Made by a program: the position numbers and the translations under genes
Shown: one piece after another, positions 17,422-39,890 of the stretch
Layout of the letters: the number at the start of each line of letters is the position of its first letter
Numbering within the stretch: position 1 is the stretch's first letter
Notes under the pieces: model-generated
Database searches by the model: none
What the model was told of the DNA's origin: nothing
The model's input: only the letters and a program-made list of their open reading frames with translations
Source: Bifiguratus adelaidae
Taxonomy: Eukaryota; Mucoromycota; Endogonomycetes; Endogonales
NCBI GenBank assembly: GCA_002261195.1
Contig: MVBO01000128.1
Location: 1 to 43,495 of the forward strand
Direction: 5' to 3'
DNA length: 43,495 nt

Positions 17422-18170
17422 TGGTCAAGTGTTGCTAGAGTTTTATCCTTCCCTAGACCTAGTACAAGCCGCAACGTCATTGACGCTTCACGCCAGACCG
17501 AGTTTATCCGTCATGCGATAGATTCCCCTTTATACTCAAAGAGCGATCCACAGGAATGCCGTTCATTTTGAAATCCCTATCCCCCTTATGCCTACAGTTC
17601 TCTCGGATGAACGCCAGTGCCTTTAGAAATGCAAGCAAAGCACAGACTTGCGTGTGATGGTTGCTAATATTGGCGTGCGATGCGTAGATTCCTCCTTGCA
17701 CAGTGATGCAAGCCATAAAAGGCAAAGTCAGTATCGCTTTATATCGCTTTCACGATCCTGGTAAACCCCAACGACATCACTAATCTTGGATCAATCCGCA
17801 TCGACTGCATCTTCAACCTATTTGTTCTCTCCCTGAAGGGTCATGCGTCGATACTTGTTTCTCTTTAGCATGGATAGCTCGGTTGAATTTTACTCCGAAA
17901 CCCCAGGAGCGATGTGAAACAGAGTGATCCGAGGACATGGATTGCTTGGCACTGCAACGGAAGGCAACGGCATCTAAAGGGATTAGGATCCTTCAAGGCA
18001 AAGCAGCACATAACTTCCCATATTCACATCGGATGTGCATTGAATAGCCTCCGTAGAAGCACAATCTCGCCACAGGGCATCATCATTCAAAAGGTTCAAC
18101 GCTTTGAAATTTCCTGGAATTTAAAGTGCCTTTTATCTGCTTGTTGACAATTCCGCCCCCCCCGCTCTTC
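17422..18170. other. Long divergent intergenic region
   Basis: About 750 bases between the minus-strand uncharacterised gene and the Zn2Cys6 gene. Short open frames occur on both strands but none has a convincing start, splice pattern or family motif. There is a run of eight C at 18156-18163 just before the transcription factor ATG. A regulated promoter for the transcription factor is likely; I see no RNA gene. Confidence 0.5.
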
Positions 18171-20504
18171 ATGCCTTTCACAGAGGATGATATGGACCTA
18201 GCCAAGATCAAGACAGAGGAACTTTCGTACGAAACACCCCACACACCAACACCATTGCAGGTGCGGATACGGTCGAATCCTTGCGAAAACTGTCGAACGA
18301 GACGAAGAAAGTGTACCTACGACAGGCCGTCTTGCGAGCGATGTCTGAAACAAGGCAAGGAATGCGTTTACATACGAAACATTGCCCCTGATGATCAGCA
18401 ATACGAGCGTGACCTTCTACTGAAAGAGTCGTTGCCCTCCACCATAGATGAGGTCGAGCAGACGATTGAGGAGATGGAGGCACAACTGAATGAATACCGT
18501 ACCAGAGCAGCCTCGCAACGTCTACAGCCCGTGCAAGGCTCTTTCGCATCAATGGATACGCGGTATAAGGTATCTAACCCATACTGCTTGCCTATTATTC
18601 AATCAGAAGCTTCACCGCCCACTTCCGATCATTCCAGCCCACCCTCACTTTACGAAGGAGTGTCCTCTGAAGAGAGTGCGACAGAAATTGAAAGCGCTGC
18701 TCGCGTGCAATCTGAGACATTGCGGGAACGAAACGGGCGGATGTATGCCTCTCCGTCCTCTTTAGGTGGCTCAACATCATCGTCCCTCCAAACGCAACGA
18801 ACAATGTCCTTGGACGATGCTATGCATTTGCAAACCTTCAAAACCGGTCTCGGTTGGGATATCCAAGTTATGGATGACGGTCTCCGCATTCAGACCAACA
18901 TTCGCTCGTATGTCGATCTTTTGCAACAACTCTTATATCCGCTGAGAACATCACTTCAAGTCTTGCTTTCGGAATCTAAGACACCACCATCCTCCTTACG
19001 TTTTCCTCCCAATGTCCTGCACACACAAAACTCAAGCATACAATCGTCAATTTCTAGCGGATTACCGCAAGCTTTTCAAACGACGGTATTAACCAAGAAT
19101 CGACGGTCTAGTGGTATAAATCATCGAGTATCTAAACTTCTCCATGGAAGAATGCCAGAAGACCTCGGAACTCTCCCACAATCATCGCAATCCGCCCACA
19201 TCAATGACCACCTGACTGTCGAGCTGGTGAAGCTACACTTTCTGTGTTCAAATATCCGTAACAGCGATATCGACGAGAAATACTATTATAATCATTGGTT
19301 CAATAGTCAGAACCCTACAAATGAACCCCTTACATGTGCCATGGTAGCGATGGCAGCAGCCCTTCCATGTCAGCACACAAGGCGCTGTTCTGCCCTGCAA
19401 GGTCTAAGTTTGGATAGCGTCTGCAACGTTTATTTCGCCAGGTCAAGGCAGCTCCTACAAGACTCTTTCGACGAATATTCACTGCGAAACATGATTGCCT
19501 ACCTTTTGTTGGCGCGGTGTGCCTGGTTTTCACTACGCGTCAAGCAATCACATCAGTATAGAGGGCTTGCACTGAACATGGCGGAGCTTCTTCTACGGCA
19601 CGAATTCAACCATAAGGACGCCGAGTCCAGGACAGTCGAACATGAGATGTTTGTTCGAAACTATTGGATCCTACTCAGTCTCGATCTTCTCGTCAAAAAG
19701 CTCAGCATCAATCAACATGAAATGTCGACCTTTGTCGACTATATCGGTCGGATAGGACTTCCTATACCACGTCTCGGCGAAAGCAACTCGGCAGTTCGGG
19801 CGGTGATAGCGCAGCAACACATCATCAGTTACCGCGCTACCTATGATACAATCATAAAGCGTATATTGGCCAAGAATGTATCGGAAGTGCCACTACAAAC
19901 AATTACAGAAGCCGAAGATGCATTATATCTCTGGTATAGTAACATCCCCGCAGACTTCCAACTCCCCACCTATCTCACCTTAGCACCCAACCAAACATTT
20001 ATGGATGTCCTCGAGACATGTTCGTCGCTCGACTATCACGCCTTTTATCTTTCAGCCCAATTTCACAGTTGCCTTCTCCGCATCCATCAATTCTTCCTTC
20101 CAGACCATTCCAACCCAAGCAAACCACCTTCTCAACTTGCTCTACGATCCCAGGCCATAGCGTTGCAGTGTGCCAACATCATCACCGACCTAGCGCGTAT
20201 TCATCGGCGATACGAGTGGTGTCAATATGGCTTAAATGGTCTCTTCCTTGTCATCAACGTGCACCATGAAAACAGCAAGAGCCCCAATCCCTTCATTCGA
20301 TGTGAGGCCAAGAAGGGACTCGAGCTATGCCAACAAATTGTAGAACGCGCCTTCCCGGACGAGAAGGATGCGATATTTCAGGACGATTTTAACAGTGATG
20401 ATTCGACTGGAGAAAGTTCAGGAGAATCTGATACACGATTGCGTGTCCTCATCAAGCGGAGCTTCGCATCTGCTCTACAGGGCTCTGGCATTGTATCTGT
20501 ATAG
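18171..20504 (+). CDS. Zn2Cys6 fungal transcription factor
   Basis: Fungal-specific zinc binuclear cluster regulator, nuclear, target genes unknown. A single exon of 777 residues from the ATG at 18171. Seen: a Zn2Cys6 cluster at about residues 38-65 with spacing C-x2-C-x6-C-x6-C-x2-C-x6-C (CENC, KC, SC, RC, EC), followed by a linker and a short acidic coiled stretch (TIDEVEQTIEEMEAQLNEY), a Ser-rich linker, and a long helical middle region typical of the fungal transcription factor domain (LAMVAMAAALPCQH, ARSRQLLQD, LRNMIAYLLLARCAWF). The earlier in-frame GTG at 18126 is not needed as a start. The acidic Ser/Asp tail (SDDSTGESSGESD) might be an activation segment. Confidence 0.93.
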   Translation: MPFTEDDMDLAKIKTEELSYETPHTPTPLQVRIRSNPCENCRTRRRKCTYDRPSCERCLKQGKECVYIRNIAPDDQQYERDLLLKESLPSTIDEVEQTIEEMEAQLNEYRTRAASQRLQPVQGSFASMDTRYKVSNPYCLPIIQSEASPPTSDHSSPPSLYEGVSSEESATEIESAARVQSETLRERNGRMYASPSSLGGSTSSSLQTQRTMSLDDAMHLQTFKTGLGWDIQVMDDGLRIQTNIRSYVDLLQQLLYPLRTSLQVLLSESKTPPSSLRFPPNVLHTQNSSIQSSISSGLPQAFQTTVLTKNRRSSGINHRVSKLLHGRMPEDLGTLPQSSQSAHINDHLTVELVKLHFLCSNIRNSDIDEKYYYNHWFNSQNPTNEPLTCAMVAMAAALPCQHTRRCSALQGLSLDSVCNVYFARSRQLLQDSFDEYSLRNMIAYLLLARCAWFSLRVKQSHQYRGLALNMAELLLRHEFNHKDAESRTVEHEMFVRNYWILLSLDLLVKKLSINQHEMSTFVDYIGRIGLPIPRLGESNSAVRAVIAQQHIISYRATYDTIIKRILAKNVSEVPLQTITEAEDALYLWYSNIPADFQLPTYLTLAPNQTFMDVLETCSSLDYHAFYLSAQFHSCLLRIHQFFLPDHSNPSKPPSQLALRSQAIALQCANIITDLARIHRRYEWCQYGLNGLFLVINVHHENSKSPNPFIRCEAKKGLELCQQIVERAFPDEKDAIFQDDFNSDDSTGESSGESDTRLRVLIKRSFASALQGSGIVSV

Positions 20505-31300: not shown

Positions 31301-31523
31301 TCATACATCATACCCTCTCTGTATATTCTGTGCGCTATACCCTCTTACACACACACCATCGAAAAAGTCTCTATTATTCTTTCTCTTTTATCTCGCTAGA
31401 AGTCGATATAGACTGGCATTAATGTGTTGTATCCATTTGCGTGTTGTCTTGGCCCCGAAAAGAAAAATAGGAACATGACCATGAAACTCACTCTCTATTG
31501 GCCATGTTTGTGCTATGGTACAA

Positions 31524-32289
31524 TTAGTCTAACGTGGACACCACAAGTCCTTTTTCGTGCTCCGAATAGTAATTGGATCCACTCTCGAGCGAATCAATCA
31601 AGACTTCTAACCGCCTTCCATCGAAATTCTCCTCCTGCTCATCGTCAGCCAGCTACAAAACGCTCTCTCACAGGGAGCTTACCTGGCGAATACTATCCAG
31701 CGAGGTGCCAAACGCCTGCGTCACCAGTGCCATATAAAGTCGCTTAAACCGTTCAGCCGTTTCGGGTTGAGAAAGAGGGTGATGGAGATGTTGATGATTG
31801 GCATCGTAAAAGATAGCTTGGCCCGTCTCGTCCTTGTCGGCTTCATTCTCAGCGGCTTCATCCTCAGAGACGGGTTCTCGTGCGCCGTCAGAGTCATCCT
31901 CGGATGCGGTGTTTTCGGCATCCATATTGTCGTCAGGATGTTCGGCTAAGTCTGCGTCTTGATTGACTTGTTCGTCCTGCGCTTGAAACATGGTCTCGTC
32001 CAGGTCATTGCCCTCTGTATCTTCTAGGTTATCAAATAGTCCTTCTGACGCAGGCTCTTCCTCGGACGACGAATCTGCAGAATGTCCATTGAGCGCCAAA
32101 TGCAAAACCGAAGTAGCATGGGCTTACCGAATCGTGACATGTCTCCCATGATTTTGGCATCTGCGCACCCGTAAGAATGTCGATGCGTGCGCGCAACAAG
32201 AGTAAAATGCAAAGCTTACCTAGCACTGGTTGATCCCTTCGTCGCTTCACACCATGCTGTGGTTGTTCTCCTCGTCGTTTCTTGGCCAT
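31524..32289 (-). CDS. RSA3: Ribosome assembly protein 3
   Basis: Factor for late nucleolar 60S subunit assembly. Four exons on the minus strand: 32289-32220, 32160-32128, 32074-31683 and 31634-31524, giving 201 residues. Seen: a basic, nucleolar-like N-terminus (AKKRRGEQ, VKRRRDQ), a long acidic Glu/Asp/Ser-rich middle, then the Rsa3 core: ERFKRLYMALVTQAFGTSLD followed by RRLEVLIDSLESG and EKGLVVSTLD. The ATG at 32289 has a perfect ACCATGG context; another in-frame ATG sits six bases upstream. The last intron (31635-31682) is taken as 48 bases with branch site CTGAC; a 30-base version ending at an earlier AG would be in frame too. It lies 310 bases downstream of the glutathione peroxidase on the same strand. 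Confidence 0.82.
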
Positions 32290-32351
32290 GGTCATAAAAT
32301 CAGAACACTGCACACTATATTTATTGTCTTGAAATGATCCGTTTGACACTA

Positions 32352-32401
32352 TCCTGGCTATAGCATCTACTGACCATGGGCATGCGCTATGGCATTCTCA
32401 T
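32352..32401 (-). promoter_or_regulatory. Second SECIS-like hairpin candidate
   Basis: On the minus strand an ATGA (32401-32398) precedes a hairpin of eight or nine pairs, GCCATAGCG with TGCTATAGC (one mismatch), and a GGAT follows at the 3' base. A CC pair lies in the loop, as in some SECIS elements. The bases between the ATGA and the helix do not pair, and there is no AA in the loop, so the fit is poor. Confidence 0.2.
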
Positions 32402-32545
32402 CGCTTGGTACAGCTCGGTATGGAGGGTATGGGTCTAATATCCACCATCCCATTGAGATGTATTCTAGCGCTGTTTCGGCTACAATCCGCGGTCGTGAAA
32501 CGATTTGTGCGGAAAGGCGTCATATAGAGAGAAGGCCATAGCGCA
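32383..32545. repeat. 11-base inverted repeat spanning the GPx 3' region
   Basis: TGCGCTATGGC at 32383-32393 is the exact reverse complement of GCCATAGCGCA at 32535-32545. The arms lie about 140 bases apart in the spacer between the glutathione peroxidase and RSA3 genes, so a transcript covering both could form a long stem that encloses the first SECIS-like hairpin. It may be chance. Confidence 0.5.
32463..32523 (-). promoter_or_regulatory. Candidate SECIS-like hairpin in the GPx 3' UTR
   Basis: On the minus strand, 77 bases after the glutathione peroxidase stop, ATGA (32523-32520) is followed by 13 bases and then AAA (32506-32504), the same spacing as in vertebrate GPx SECIS elements. CGCCTTTCCGC then pairs imperfectly with GCCGAAACAGCG, and a GA (32465-32464) lies near the 3' base. 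Two unpaired bases separate the helix from the GA and the lower helix is weak, so this is not a textbook SECIS. It is the best candidate found by eye in the spacer. Confidence 0.28.
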
Positions 32546-32599
32546 AGCAAGCCAACGTCTGCACATGGTTTGAAAGGAAGAAAAAAGAAAACAACGCCG

Positions 32600-33345
32600 T
32601 TATTGAGAAGGTTGTTCCTTCTGGGCGTTTCGTTTTGCCAATAGAGACTCCAAAAGAGGGATCATCGAGTCTGGTTCATCCTTGGGTCCAAATCGTTGAA
32701 CCGGTGTACCTTCATGATCCAGCACAAACTAGACCCTGGTCAGTGGTGCTGTTGAGTCAGCCGATCTCCCAAACCTACCTTGGTGAAATTCCACTTGACG
32801 GCATCCACCAACGATCCATTGAGATGATGCTTGAGGAAGGTAAAGAGCGGATGGGCATTGGAGCCATTCACATCAACTTTTTCAAACATTTGAAACTCGA
32901 CAGGATACTGAGAGATGAATTTCTTAATGTCCTCCGGGGTACCAGGTTCTAGTCGGTGTCAGTATGGCATGTCACCCATCGGGTTGACCAAGCGAACTCA
33001 CCCTGATTGCCAAACTGGTTACAGGGAAAGCCGAGAATCCTTAGACCCTGGTCTCGGTACTTTCGATCAAGCGCGCTCAACTGTTTGTAGTTGAGCGGAG
33101 TCAAACCTCACTACACAAATCAGTCTATATTCAAGAGCAAGTAGCGACGACCTACCTTGGACGCGACGTTGACAACCACGACCACATCACCATTGTACTT
33201 GCTCATGGAGATTTCTTCTCCATCGAGCGACTTTGCAGAGTACTCGTAAAACTGTATCAAAAGTAAGCTTCACTGCAAGACTAGTCATATCACTTACCGA
33301 GCGTTTCGACGGCGTCGCCTGATTACCAAAGATTGAGCGAAACAT
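32600..33345 (-). CDS. Selenocysteine glutathione peroxidase (GPx4-like selenoprotein)
   Basis: Reduces hydroperoxides, likely with glutathione. Exons on the minus strand: 33345-33298, 33251-33156, 33110-33002, 32948-32779 and 32728-32600; total 184 codons including stop. The first codon of exon 3 is TGA, at residue 49, flanked by VVNVASK and [10 protein letters not shown], precisely the position of the catalytic Cys/Sec. The rest is intact: [15 protein letters not shown] with the tetrad Gln, KVDVNG, and KWNFTKF with the Trp and Asn, then a normal TAA stop. The segment after NQEPG ([16 protein letters not shown]) has no resolving Cys and resembles animal GPx4, not yeast thiol peroxidases. I find no splice choice that avoids the TGA. 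A recent inactivating mutation of a TGC/TGT codon is the alternative. Start region MFRSIFG; cytosolic or mitochondrial location unknown. Confidence 0.82.
33108..33110 (-). other. In-frame TGA at the active site (putative Sec codon)
   Basis: TGA read on the minus strand as the first codon after intron 2 of the glutathione peroxidase. It replaces the Cys codon found in nearly all fungal homologues, with AAG before and GGT after. TGA ends several other genes in this window, so recoding must be local, as for selenocysteine. Confidence 0.8.
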
Positions 33346-33818
33346 GCTAATCAGAGGTGTGCCACAGTGCGCAATTTATCCAGCCTTTTGAGCTTTTCTG
33401 TGATTGGATGACTGCCATTGTGTGTCTATGGAGGATTGGAGTAGCCATGGGTGGATGGAACTCAAGGTGGATGATGGTTGCTATGTGCACTGGTAGTTCC
33501 CATAGTGCCATGGCAAGGACAGGCGTATCACACTAATCTAACTTATCTTTGCAACGTCTACATCATTCCCTCCAAGCGATTGAAACTCAGTGCACCATCC
33601 CATGTCTACGCCAGCCATGCAAGGCATATGGTCTCGCCTTGATGGCTCTGGCCACAATGAACTGCTCTTGACACGCGCTTTCCTCACGGAGGATTGAAGC
33701 TTGGAACGCTTTCCATTTAAGGAAGCTCAGGTACCTAAAGGTGGAACAGAACGCTCTCTTTCACACCATCACACAGCACGATCCATAACCGAGCTTATTT
33801 GGCTCGCAACACAGCCCC
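33346..33818. promoter_or_regulatory. Divergent promoter region, GPx and kinesin
   Basis: 473 bases between two divergent genes. A CCAAT box on the minus strand (ATTGG at 33403-33407 on the plus strand) lies about 60 bases from the glutathione peroxidase ATG and is the only motif recognised. Short open frames here have no support. Confidence 0.45.
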
Positions 33819-36800
33819 ATGAGCGTCAAAGACAGAGACAAGGGGCCAGAGAGCACTTCTGTCCAAGTGGGTATGTAAGAGCCTGAGACCGTCTGTTCAG
33901 GCACGCGATAACGCGCCAATTTTATTGAACCGTGCTTTCAGCGCTTCGTATCAGGCCCTTGACCTCTTCAGACCGCAATCAACCACGCTTCTCGACCCAA
34001 AATGAACATGATATTTTGTCACAGTCCTCCGTACCTCCCTACAACAGCCTTACCGTTGTTCCTTACGGGCAACAATATACCTTTGACGCTGTTCTAGGTA
34101 CATCTGTGGGACAAGAGGAGGTATTTGAACGATGCGCCAAGGGTATGGTGGACAAGTTTGTGGAAGGTGGGTAAAGAGAGACGGTGAGATTGTGCAACGA
34201 ATTAAAAATACATTGTAGGTTACAATGTGACGATCCTAGCCTATGTGAGTGTGGAAGGCCGGCGATAGTCATGAACTTGATCATACAAATCTAATCGCAT
34301 GCCTCCCATAGGGACAAACCTCTTCCGGTAAAACATATACTATGGGAACGGCTCAAGGCGTCAAAGGGAGTAATCCACAAGATGCGGGTATCATTCCTCG
34401 CGCGATGCATCAGCTGTTTGCTGCATTACAAGCCAGTCAACCCACCAGCCCTGCCAATAGCCGACCCCACACAAGATCATCTACACCTTCCGGCATCAGA
34501 GCCCCTGGTTCTACGCTTCCGCGCGCGAATGGCATTGCTTCGCCTCCGACCCCGCGTCCCCGGAAGGCTAGCTCCAATAATCTTATCGTGAATGGCAACC
34601 ACGACGGTCCAGCCGACACGCATGCTCCCAAATATACAGTCAAGGTTTCCTTCTTAGAGTTGTACAATGAAGAGCTCGTAGATCTCTTGGCCGACAATCG
34701 CTCTCCCGAACGGCTCCCCGTCACGATCAGAGAAGACACAAAGGGGGTAATATATTGGAGTGGAGTTCGTGAGGTACCGGTAGAAGATGTAACGGACGTC
34801 CTGCATTATCTCGCTGTCGGAAGCGAAAACAGAGTTACAGGCGCTACCGACATGAACGAGAAATCATCGAGATCGCACGCGATATTTTCAGTGACACTTC
34901 GTCAGGAAAAGTGGGTATCGAATGGAACTCACGTTCGACACCAGACGAGTCCAGTTCCCAGTGCGTCTTCTCGGACTTCTGGCACCACGAAACGACCCAG
35001 CAGTTCTCTTGCTGTACGCGCTCCGGATACGGACAGCAGTGATGTTGAAGTGAGTGGTGAAAGGGTTGTGCTCACATCCAAATTTCACTTTGTGGATCTT
35101 GCGGGTAGTGAACGGGTACGTATGAGAAAACCACGCCATGGCGTATGTGTGCACGCTAACCCGAATCACCACAGCTCAAGCGTACCGCTGCCTCAGGCGA
35201 GCGTCTCAAGGAAGGTATTGCCATCAATGCCGGCTTGTCGGCGTTAGGCAACGTTATTTCTGCCTTGGGCGATCCTCATCGTAAATCGACAACCCACGTA
35301 CCGTACCGTGATTCCAAGTTGACGCGTCTCTTACAAGATTCACTGGGTGGCAATGCACAAACGTTGATGATTGCTTGCGTCTCGCCTGCTGAATATAACC
35401 TGGTGGAAACTGTGAATACCATCAAATATGCCAGCCGGGCTCGAAACATCAAGAACAAGGTGGAAAAGAATGAAGAGTGGGAGAGCGAGAACAATATTGA
35501 GGTCTTGAAGCGTATCATCGCCAAGCTGCGGCAAGAGGTCAAGGAGTTGAAGGTGGGCCATGCGAACGGCACAACGGATGGTGACGGGCACGAAAATTCC
35601 ATGCGCGAAAAGTATGTTGGCTTAGAGAAGGAATCAAACGATGCCCAGCGCATCGAGATTGAAGAGTTGCAGCATCGCCTAGAACAAGTGGAACAAGAGC
35701 ATGCCATGACTCGTAGTCAGTACCAAAAGAGCGAACGTGAGCTCAATCGACTGAAACAAGCATCTCACAATGATCAAACCGCAGGAGCTAGCTCTGAAAA
35801 TTCGGTCTTCAGCTTTCAGGAACTGGTCGAGCCGGTCATTGAAGAATACGAAAAGACCATTGCGGATCTGGACTCCAAGTTGGCCCTTACGCGTGCTGCA
35901 CTCAATCATTCGGATTCCGCGCTTCAAGAGCAGGAAGCGCTCATTCAACACAAGTCTCGTCTTCACGAAAATGACTTGGCGACAATAAGCGAACTTCAAG
36001 CACAACTTCAACGATGCGCCGAGCGAGAGTTGTCATCAGACCATTACATTGAGCAGCTGGAAGTCAAACTTGCCGCGTATACGCAAGAGAATGCTCGTGA
36101 TCAATCGCTGTTGACTGATTTGCGGGATCGTATCGCCAAATTTAAGGAAATGGACGAAAGCACGGAAAAGTATATCAAAGAGTTAGAACAGCGGGTCCAA
36201 GAGAGCGATGAAGAGCTTGGTCGCGTACAGCAGACCGTGAAAGACTCTGAGAAGGCTCTTCGTGAGACCGAGGCGAAACTGGCGGAGCTAACGAAATCAC
36301 GCAGGGTTGTCTTAGGCAACAAGCACGAGCTGGATGATCAAGCGCCAATACCCAGAGCGCAACCCGTTTCTTCAGCAACCGAATCGATTCCTGCGACTGC
36401 AACTGTGCAAGTCCCTCGATCGACTGATGTGGAAGAGGAAGTCGAGGCTAGTACGTTCGACGATGAACCTCCTGGCAGATCTGGTCGAAACACTATGGAG
36501 TTGGAGCTGCAGAGCGCTAATATCCAAGCGAAATTACTGGAGGAACTTGAGCAAAAGCATTCGAGCGCCAAGGAGCAATTGGAAATGTACATTGCCAAAA
36601 GTAAAGCGAGCGAGGAAGAGATCGCGCGACTTCAGCTTCAGCTGGAGCATACCCGCCAACATACCGCGAAATCAGAACAAATGGCGCTTGCAAAGGCACA
36701 GCAAGAAAAAGATTACGAAAATGCCAGAATGGAACTGTCCAACTTGCAGGTCAAAGTAGCAGGCATTGAACACGAAAAGGAAAAGTTATCGATACTGGTG

Positions 36801-39800
36801 CAAGATTTGCGGGCCATCATTGCCGATCAAGAATCCAGATTGAGCGCAGCAGACGCCTTGCACGCCAGTGAGCTTCTAACGCTCCGTTCATCCATGACCC
36901 GATCCGAGCGAGAACTGTCCCTATTGCAAGAGCAACACGACAAGATGGTACAAAGTTTGGATGGTGGACAGGATGCAATGAGCGACCTACCAAAGGAGTT
37001 GTCGCGCAAAGACGAACTAATTGCACAACTACAAGACAATCTCTTTGCCTTGGAGCAAGCACAAAAAGAAGAAGATGAATCCAATAAGCGGCTTGAAGCG
37101 ATTCAACAAGAGTTGACTCAATCGCGGGCAGAGCTTTCTGAGCAGGCGACCAGTGCAAAATCAATGCAGGCCATGATCAAGCAGCTCAAGAGTGAGAAGG
37201 AGTCACTCGAGAGCAACCTTTCTGCCATCGTGGAGATAAACAATATCAACGAAGGTGAACTTGTCATCATGAAAAAGCGACTAGAATTGATGACAAATCA
37301 AGCCAAAACCGAGAGTGCTTCAGTGCAGGCGAATGGCAATGCTGCCGCTTTGGCAGAGGAATTGCGATCATCCAAGTCAAAATTGTCTCAAACTCAACAG
37401 TCTTTGGATGCGTTGAAGTCCTTGCTGGAACAAAAGGAGACAGAGTGGATGCAGCGACAAAGCGACGAAAAGGATTACGCGAGCAAAGTCAGTGAACTTG
37501 AAGGAGCCCTGGCAAATGCCAAACAAGAACATCAAGCTACCGAGGCTGAACTAGCTACAACACTAGAACAGCTTGCGCAAGCAGATTCGCAAAACGCGAC
37601 CTTGACGGACAAACTTGAGCAGGAACGTCTATCTGCACAGACAACGACAGACGTCATGTTGAACTTGGAGAAGCGCATTGAGGAAGCGGATGCTGAAATC
37701 ACGAGATTGAAACAGGAGCTGTTCGCCCAAAAGCAACGGTGGGCGAAACAGACCAGCGAAATAGAGCGCAAGGAGGTTGCCATTTCTGAGCACCAAGAAC
37801 GACTAGCGAAAATCACGGCCGAGAACGACAAAAATCTCGCGTCGCTCCAGGAGCATATGCAAAAACTCGCCTCTACCGATGATCTACACCATCAACAATT
37901 CGCTACTATTAGCACACTACGAGCGGATATCGACAGGTTACAGTCACTCGCAAACTCCTTGGAAGAAGAGAAGAATGCGCATCATATGCGCATGCAAGAA
38001 GAGACGAGTCGTGTCCAAAGTGAGTTGGCCAAATGGAAGGCAGATTACAACGAGACCGAGACACAGAAGGCCGACGTGGAAAGGCAGCTACAGAATGCCG
38101 TCAAGGCTCAAGAACAAATGCAAAGCTTACTAAACCAGCTTCAACGTCAACTTAGCGATGCTGAGACGGCTGACAAGCTTAAATCTGACAGACTACATGA
38201 ATGTTTGGCTCAACTTGCGCAGGCCGAAGATCGAGGTAAAAAGGAAGCGGATCGATATCAGGAACTTGCACAGCAATTCGGCGATCTGCAACGGACATTG
38301 GACACCATGAGCAAGGAGAGCAAAGTGGCGGAAGAGACGATACAGCAATTGCAGATGAACTTGAACGTCTCCGAAAAAGAAAAGGCACGCCTTTCAGCCG
38401 TACAACAAGACCTGCAAAAGAATGAACTGGAAGCCGACCATGCGAGGTCAAGTTTGCAGAAGATCATGGATGACTTGCAAGGCGAATTACGTTCGGCTAA
38501 ACAGCAATCAGACTCTCAACAAACAGAAATTGCGACCTCGAGGAAAAGTCTACAAGCGTTGGAGAAACACCTTAGCCAAATGCAAAAGGAAAAGGAGGAC
38601 CACGAGCAGACTATTTCAACGGTGCAGCGACAACTGGACGAATCGAGGCATCAACTCACCACGCAGATAAGGGAGCGGGAACAGCACGAAGCTGGCAATT
38701 TGGAGAAAGCAAACCTCATTTCAGAATTCAAACGCACTATTTCTGTATACGAAAAAGAGATACAAAACTTACGCTCGAAAGTCACCACGCTTGAAGAAGA
38801 GAATCGCGAATTCGAAGAATTGTCTCAGACTTTGGATGACGAGGTACACCGTGTATCCTTACGTATGGAACAGACGCAAGATACGGATCGTGCAAGGATT
38901 GAGAGTCTTGAAAGCACTATAACCACAATCAAGCGCCAAAGCCTTGACAACACATCGGTTATCACGGATTTGATGAAGAAACTTGGGCAATATGAAACTG
39001 AAATGGCTGAAAAGGATGAAGCGCTCAATGAAGCAAGGCAACGTATTGCGGAGCTTTCGAAAGTCCACAATTCCACAGAGACAGCCAATGGAAACTTGCA
39101 AGCAGAGCCAAACGGTCCCACAGAAAGCAATATGGACAAAGCAAGTCTATTGCAGTCTTTGAATGAATTGAGATCTACCATTCGAAAGCAAGAGCAGATG
39201 ATCTCCGATCAAGCACAGCAGATCAGAAAATTGAAGGGAGATGTCACGCGCGACCCTGCCAGCACTACCGCGAATTTGTACGCCGCCAGTCGATCGCAGA
39301 GCGGTAGCTTGCACGCAGACCGGCTACATCCACACGGACTCGATCCTCTCCTCAGTCGCCCTCCTCCTACTCCACCGCCGTCTAATCCTGTACCACCCGC
39401 TCCCACTTCCCCCAAGGACATTGCATCGCCGGTCTTGATGTCAGCAACGCGCGATGGAACGCCTCGTACCATGTCACCGCTGGCCGGACAAAAGCAACTT
39501 CCTTCAGCCGAGTCGACCAACTCTATTGAAAGTATGCTCGCCGCATCGCGCTCTGAGTTAAAGCAGCATCAACAGGTGATTTCAAAACTTGAATCGCAGC
39601 TCAATCGATCCGAGCAACTCTGTCGAGACGCTAGAAATCAAGTGACACTGTTAGAACGTGAAAGGGATCTCATAGCCAGACAACTTTCGGAATCACAAGA
39701 TACCCCTACTAACGACAGCAAAGCGGCAGATACGGCCGTCACGGAGCTCGAAGCAGAGAAAGCACAATTGAATGCTTTGCTAGAAACGGAGCGCAAGGAG

Positions 39801-39890
39801 AGGAAGAAGGCCGAGAGAGCGCGCGCTGTCCTGGAGAATCGATTGGAGGAACTCATGTCCAGTCGAAAGGGCAAATTCATGTGTTTCTAG
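33819..39890 (+). CDS. Kinesin motor with long coiled coil (kinesin-4/Kin4-like)
   Basis: Plus-end-directed microtubule motor, probably kinesin-4 family. Five exons: 33819-33870, 33942-34166, 34219-34244, 34312-35115 and 35175-39890, giving 1940 residues. Seen: N-terminal SVQVALRIRPL, P-loop GQTSSGKT at about residue 102, switch [11 protein letters not shown], switch [37 protein letters not shown] and the motor end [14 protein letters not shown] near residue 460. Two Pro/Ser/Thr-rich insertions (about 140-215 and 300-350) enlarge the motor domain by over 100 residues. Then more than 1,200 residues of heptad-rich coiled coil, a Pro-rich linker (about 1735-1790, SRPPPTPPP) and a final short coil. 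It ends in KGKFMCF. The small exon of 26 bases lies just before the P-loop. Family assignment within kinesins is inference. Confidence 0.92.

Follow-up and report, generated by a model that had tools for sequence, protein, structure and literature searches.

The window, a 43,495-nucleotide stretch of Bifiguratus adelaidae DNA corresponding to contig C33 in a genome of 18.6 Mb and 286 contigs, carries a gene for a GPX4-like glutathione peroxidase (GPx; the monomeric, phospholipid-hydroperoxide type) whose catalytic residue is very probably selenocysteine (Sec). Sec decoding is established here at gene level. The gene is a member, new or already listed, of a known class of fungal selenoproteins and not a new kind of system. 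It is a well-supported example of a trait that is known, rare and disputed, and that the majority of fungi no longer possess.

The GPx gene lies on the minus strand at 33345-32600. Splicing and translation yield five exons that keep phase throughout and a spliced reading frame of 552 bases, encoding 183 residues followed by TAA. Exon 1 (33298..33345) begins with the start codon at 33345, and exon 2 (33156..33251) terminates in NVASK. Exon 3 (33002..33110) opens with the TGA and contains Gln80; it is supported by translation and by a Pfam match. Exon 4 (32779..32948), also matched by Pfam, holds Trp137-Asn138 and Ile96, the latter at the position of the resolving cysteine. Exon 5 (32600..32728) ends in the TAA at 32602-32600; like exons 1 and 2, it is drawn from splicing and translation. 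The four introns measure 46, 45, 53 and 50 nt, and all are bounded by GT...AG. A search of the whole genome with the Pfam GSHPx profile recovers the gene independently, as two exon groups of 70.3 and 37.6 bits, and finds one further GPx, on contig C228.

The sole internal stop of this frame is the TGA at 33110-33108 (minus strand), which opens exon 3 and so lies immediately 3' of an intron. Translation and homologue alignment place it at residue 49, the catalytic position, in the context NVASK-U-GLTPLNY. The catalytic tetrad reads U49, Q80, W137 and N138. The frame runs on for 134 residues beyond the TGA, and the protein matches 42 PDB sequences (E <= 0.001), headed by designed GPX4 variants and GPX4, which align from about residue 14 to 160. 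Given an open frame of that length and an alignment of residues 14-160 to GPX4 structures, the TGA is not a chance occurrence. Coding sequence is conserved on both sides of an in-frame UGA at a redox-active position, as in selenoproteins, and the GSHPx domain together with the Cys/Sec-Gln-Trp-Asn tetrad assigns the product to the glutathione peroxidase family. The first-pass annotation, made from the letters of the window, had described a five-exon frame in phase, a single in-frame stop at the catalytic codon, and intact flanks and Gln/Trp/Asn residues; each of these points is confirmed, and the strand is now fixed as minus.

Comparison with homologues separates the gene from the common fungal and bacterial type. 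Among the best 120 of 8000 scored candidates, the catalytic position is cysteine in 107, tryptophan in 12 and a gap in one (P0066, from Thamnocephalis sphaerospora). The resolving position is cysteine in 101 of the 107 rows with catalytic cysteine, the exceptions being P0015, P0028, P0035, P0073, P0092 and P0103; it is cysteine in none of the 12 tryptophan rows, and is valine in P0066. Within the same 120, the difference between tryptophan and cysteine rows gives a Fisher p of 2e-12 with relatedness ignored. The tryptophan seen in P0001, P0003, P0017 and the other nine rows probably reflects TGA codons that gene calling on metagenomes rendered as Trp. Having TGA at the one position and Ile96 at the other, the window gene falls outside the two-Cys (thioredoxin-type) class. 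These residues bear on the simplest competing account, in which the gene is a normal Cys-GPx whose catalytic codon was changed by a recent nonsense mutation or misread in sequencing. TGA is indeed one base away from TGC or TGT. The remainder of the frame, 183 codons with four introns, is nevertheless undamaged, and the resolving position holds isoleucine where 101 of the 107 Cys homologues have cysteine. Such an error would also leave aside the Sec machinery and the second TGA gene of the same genome, described below. A pseudogene or base error is thus highly unlikely.

A tree of 35 rows agrees with this separation from two-Cys enzymes. It comprises both GPx proteins of the genome and P0066, together with 11 of the 12 tryptophan rows, 16 of the 101 with two cysteines, and five of the six that have the catalytic but not the resolving cysteine; trimming was applied to three long rows, and P0020, P0073 and the remaining rows were left out. 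A 99/99 branch sets the C228 gene and the 16 two-Cys rows apart from all others, and the genome therefore retains two kinds of GPx that diverged long ago. The window GPx forks with P0001, a tryptophan row from an unnamed metagenome, and with P0066, at a support of 84/88. The tryptophan rows are not monophyletic. The second GPx of the genome (C228:30594-31073; L004) is of the two-Cys type, and its intron interrupts the catalytic Cys codon (AAATG/gtgagt...cag/CGGG), two bases off the intron site of the window gene.

The annotation of P0066 omits the stretch around the catalytic residue. This protein may be another Sec-GPx from which the TGA was removed by annotated splicing. The same omission can be turned into an argument against selenocysteine: were exon 3 to start from a later acceptor (the CAG ending at 33081), ten codons including the TGA would be skipped. 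That acceptor is in frame, and a comparable stretch is missing from P0066. The resulting product, however, would lack its catalytic residue while retaining Gln, Trp and Asn, and the Sec machinery and the TGA of the second gene would be left unexplained; P0066 is more simply read as an annotation that dodges a stop. Removal of the TGA by splicing is accordingly rated extremely unlikely, and Sec at residue 49 stays the preferred reading.

Six parts of the eukaryotic Sec pathway are matched in the same genome: tRNA-Sec(UCA), PSTK, SecS, eEFSec, SBP2 and SPS2. The first-pass annotation had named this set as what to look for; all were matched, so an absence of Sec machinery does not count against the reading. 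The tRNA-Sec gene (C23:39599-39685) scores 67.1 bits (cut-off 47), and ARAGORN assigns it the anticodon TCA. TATATATGG lies 22-30 bases upstream and a T run downstream, as in other eukaryotic Sec tRNA genes; TATATATGG also recurs elsewhere in the locus. SecS, on C31, has eight exons and 481 residues and scores 577 bits to TIGR03531 (cut-off 225). For PSTK, a single exon on C146 has L-seryl-tRNA(Sec) kinase as its best PDB match and selen_PSTK_euk as its best NCBIfam match. It reaches 83.5 of 382 bits, under the whole-protein cut-off because one exon was submitted. Another match in the KTI12 family, at C233:33936-34987, is taken as KTI12 itself because its score is higher than that of C146. eEFSec, on C249, scores 64.1 bits to euk_SelB_III (cut-off 27), and its N-terminal stretch of 157 residues has eEFSec as top PDB match (4e-51). 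SBP2 is one of eight L7Ae matches. It lies at C233:43107 and extends into a 141-residue stretch that, in a PDB search at E <= 0.1, matches SBP2 alone (1.6e-23). A second match to the tRNA-Sec model, on C284, scored 34.6 bits, below the cut-off, and is an ordinary tRNA.

SPS2, the sixth part, is itself a TGA gene. It lies on C2 (C2:23660-25161; L041), with nine exons and 357 residues as read (the start, ahead of FDPAEAG, is provisional), one of the exons being a microexon of 8 bases (C2:23815-23822). It scores 233 bits to selD (cut-off 125). Its in-frame TGA, at C2:23726, stands in the context LKG-U-GCKVPQ, the Sec site of the SPS2 family; the same oddity therefore occurs in two unrelated genes. 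This pairing is informative about how the codon is read. Decoding of UGA as Trp or Cys, through an altered code or read-through, has nothing specific in its favour, the tryptophan of the 12 homologues among the best 120 of 8000 being uninformative on decoding. It sits poorly with a single TGA per gene, each at the family's known Sec codon, and with a dedicated tRNA-Sec(UCA) and Sec enzymes, and is exceedingly improbable. The earlier proposal that UGA is read as Sec is supported, at gene level, by the six machinery parts and the SPS2 codon. The search for a third Sec gene covered the Rdx family of Pfam (SelW/T/H type) only, where the one match is a Cys form (CTGC).

The Sec reading is weakest at its recoding signal: the SPS2 hairpin is convincing, and the GPx stem is broken. 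Searches with the Rfam SECIS models returned none in the window at gathering scores, none at 31400-33400 at E <= 10 (one chance snoRNA match), none in the GPx 3' untranslated region (UTR) alone, and none in the SPS2 3' UTR (two chance matches). A strict scan of the 400 nt past the stop was set to require an ATGA core, a stem of seven or more pairs, AA lying 9-13 nt inside, and GA. For SPS2 it found a hairpin near C2:25187-25249, with the ATGA core, a ten-pair stem, AAA after 13 bases and GA opposite. The hairpin folds at -20.9 kcal/mol, equalled in 7 of 400 dinucleotide shuffles of the UTR in the strict scan and, under a second constraint, in 9 of 2000 interior shuffles. The scan gave nothing for GPx (where the stretch began one base late), the Cys-GPx or eEFSec. 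A candidate, degenerate SECIS is present in the GPx 3' UTR, 76 bases past the stop, at 32475..32523 (minus strand): ATGACGC, ten bases, AAA and, further on, GCCGAA. Its upper stem could pair as UCCGC/GCGGA, and UCGU/ACGA could close a small hairpin; the lower stem is broken, and 68 of 2000 interior shuffles equalled the fold.

The GPx and SPS2 3' UTRs have landmarks in common: ATATGACGC, ten bases, AAA, then GCYGAA. Across the genome, ATATGACG-N11-AAA occurs at 12 places (6 for the reversed pattern) and ATGAC-N12-AAA-N15-45-GCYGAA at 29 (9 for the reversed pattern), and the GPx and SPS2 places are the only ones on both lists; this evidence is after the fact, because the motif was derived from the same two genes. 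By fold energy, SPS2 ranks first and GPx 11th among the 29. The four places next after SPS2 (L060, L066, L052 and L055), inspected by eye, showed no preceding gene with an in-frame TGA; the element of L060 sits within a long frame. The common landmarks support, and do not prove, a recoding element shared by the two genes. Mariotti et al. are said to have found in 2019 that consensus SECIS elements are absent from most fungal selenoproteins. A broader reading can be put forward tentatively, at somewhat less than even weight. It holds both that the two Sec genes have a reduced recoding signal of their own (ATATGACGC, ten bases, AAA and a GCYGAA that closes the core), functional in GPx despite the partly broken stem, and that the fungal Sec trait extends beyond the nine species reported so far, annotation having concealed it. 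The second part is suggested because SecS occurs in Polychytrium aggregatum and Hyaloraphidium curvatum and because P0066 lacks its active-site stretch. Among the best 120 of 2987 SecS homologues, that of Polychytrium aggregatum (P0154) is nearest, at 56%, and none is near-identical; that of Hyaloraphidium curvatum (P0233) stands at 53%. Together these two proteins suggest Sec machinery in further fungi. In the open-licence literature, no paper was found that links 'selenocysteine' with Thamnocephalis, Polychytrium or Hyaloraphidium.

From these genes we infer UGA decoding in vivo, a SECIS in GPx and the enzymology of the product, along the following lines. (i) PSTK would phosphorylate Ser-tRNA-Sec(UCA). 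(ii) SecS would convert it to Sec-tRNA using selenophosphate from SPS2. (iii) eEFSec would bring Sec-tRNA to the UGA, aided by SBP2 on the 3' UTR hairpin. (iv) Sec49 would reduce peroxides, assisted by Gln80, Trp137 and Asn138. (v) Because the resolving cysteine is absent, the enzyme is predicted to rely for its regeneration on glutathione or some other external thiol, not on an internal disulfide and thioredoxin.

Several known systems resemble this one. Animal GPX4 has Sec at the catalytic site. Like the window GPx it keeps Gln, Trp and Asn and lacks the resolving cysteine, and it provides the best natural PDB matches; unlike it, the window gene is fungal, has introns of 45-53 nt and carries a degenerate candidate SECIS. 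The two-Cys enzymes of fungi and bacteria (thioredoxin-type, such as yeast HYR1) share the fold family. The C228 gene, with both cysteines, belongs there, whereas in the window GPx TGA replaces the peroxidatic cysteine and Ile the resolving one. The genome's SPS2 resembles animal SPS2 in its TGA at the catalytic Sec position, LKG-U-GCKVPQ, and differs in its nine exons as read and its 8-base microexon; human-type SPS1, a PDB match of SPS2, has Thr at that position. The closest precedent is the fungal selenoproteins of early-branching lineages reportedly described by Mariotti et al. (2019), B. adelaidae among them, where, as here, Sec machinery and TGA genes occur together outside Dikarya.

Published statements on fungal Sec diverge. 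B. adelaidae is listed among Sec-using fungi in a passage of PMC7988114, and Harpellales are given as seven of nine such fungi in one of PMC10386755. Zancudomyces is credited, in an excerpt of PMC12611240, with Sec machinery and with RNA-seq evidence for expression of selenoproteins and machinery, and loss of selenocysteine from Dikarya is noted in a part of PMC11378755. The earlier note's view that Sec is confined to a few early-branching fungi agrees with these portions of the four sources. The 2021 survey of annotated proteomes states, in a section of PMC7988114, that Sec is not encoded by fungi, and a passage of PMC8559351 likewise denies it from annotated proteomes; GPx evolution is treated in part of PMC8614756. 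The present genome gives an independent yes at the level of DNA: it holds six genes of the machinery, and in two genes unrelated to each other TGA stands at a known Sec codon. Searches of annotated proteins for the letter U can overlook the trait. The co-occurrence of a TGA-GPx and a two-Cys GPx makes this genome well suited to the question of why Sec is retained, and the degenerate recoding signal is testable.

Bifiguratus adelaidae belongs to the subphylum Mucoromycotina. Among 7995 candidates, a TFIP11-like protein encoded in the window (14135-11535) has 33 matches at E <= 1e-40, the first of them the window's own entry. The nearest other named sequences are from Umbelopsis (45-46%), followed by Apophysomyces, Radiomyces, Phycomyces and other Mucorales, with Calcarisporiella at 37%. 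As a single marker, this protein points to Mucoromycotina, near Umbelopsis and without a close named relative. The 18S primer NS1 had no match in the genome, and the placement therefore rests on one protein. Two highly similar copies of an apparent ribosomal protein gene, which we take to be eL8, lie at C40:3951-4205 and C79:185332-185592. Elsewhere in the window, a long plus-strand frame at 18126-20504 begins with a Zn(II)2Cys6-like cluster of the fungal transcription factor type, and two adjoining plus-strand frames at 34342-39890 appear to encode a kinesin-like motor and, after it, a long coiled coil.
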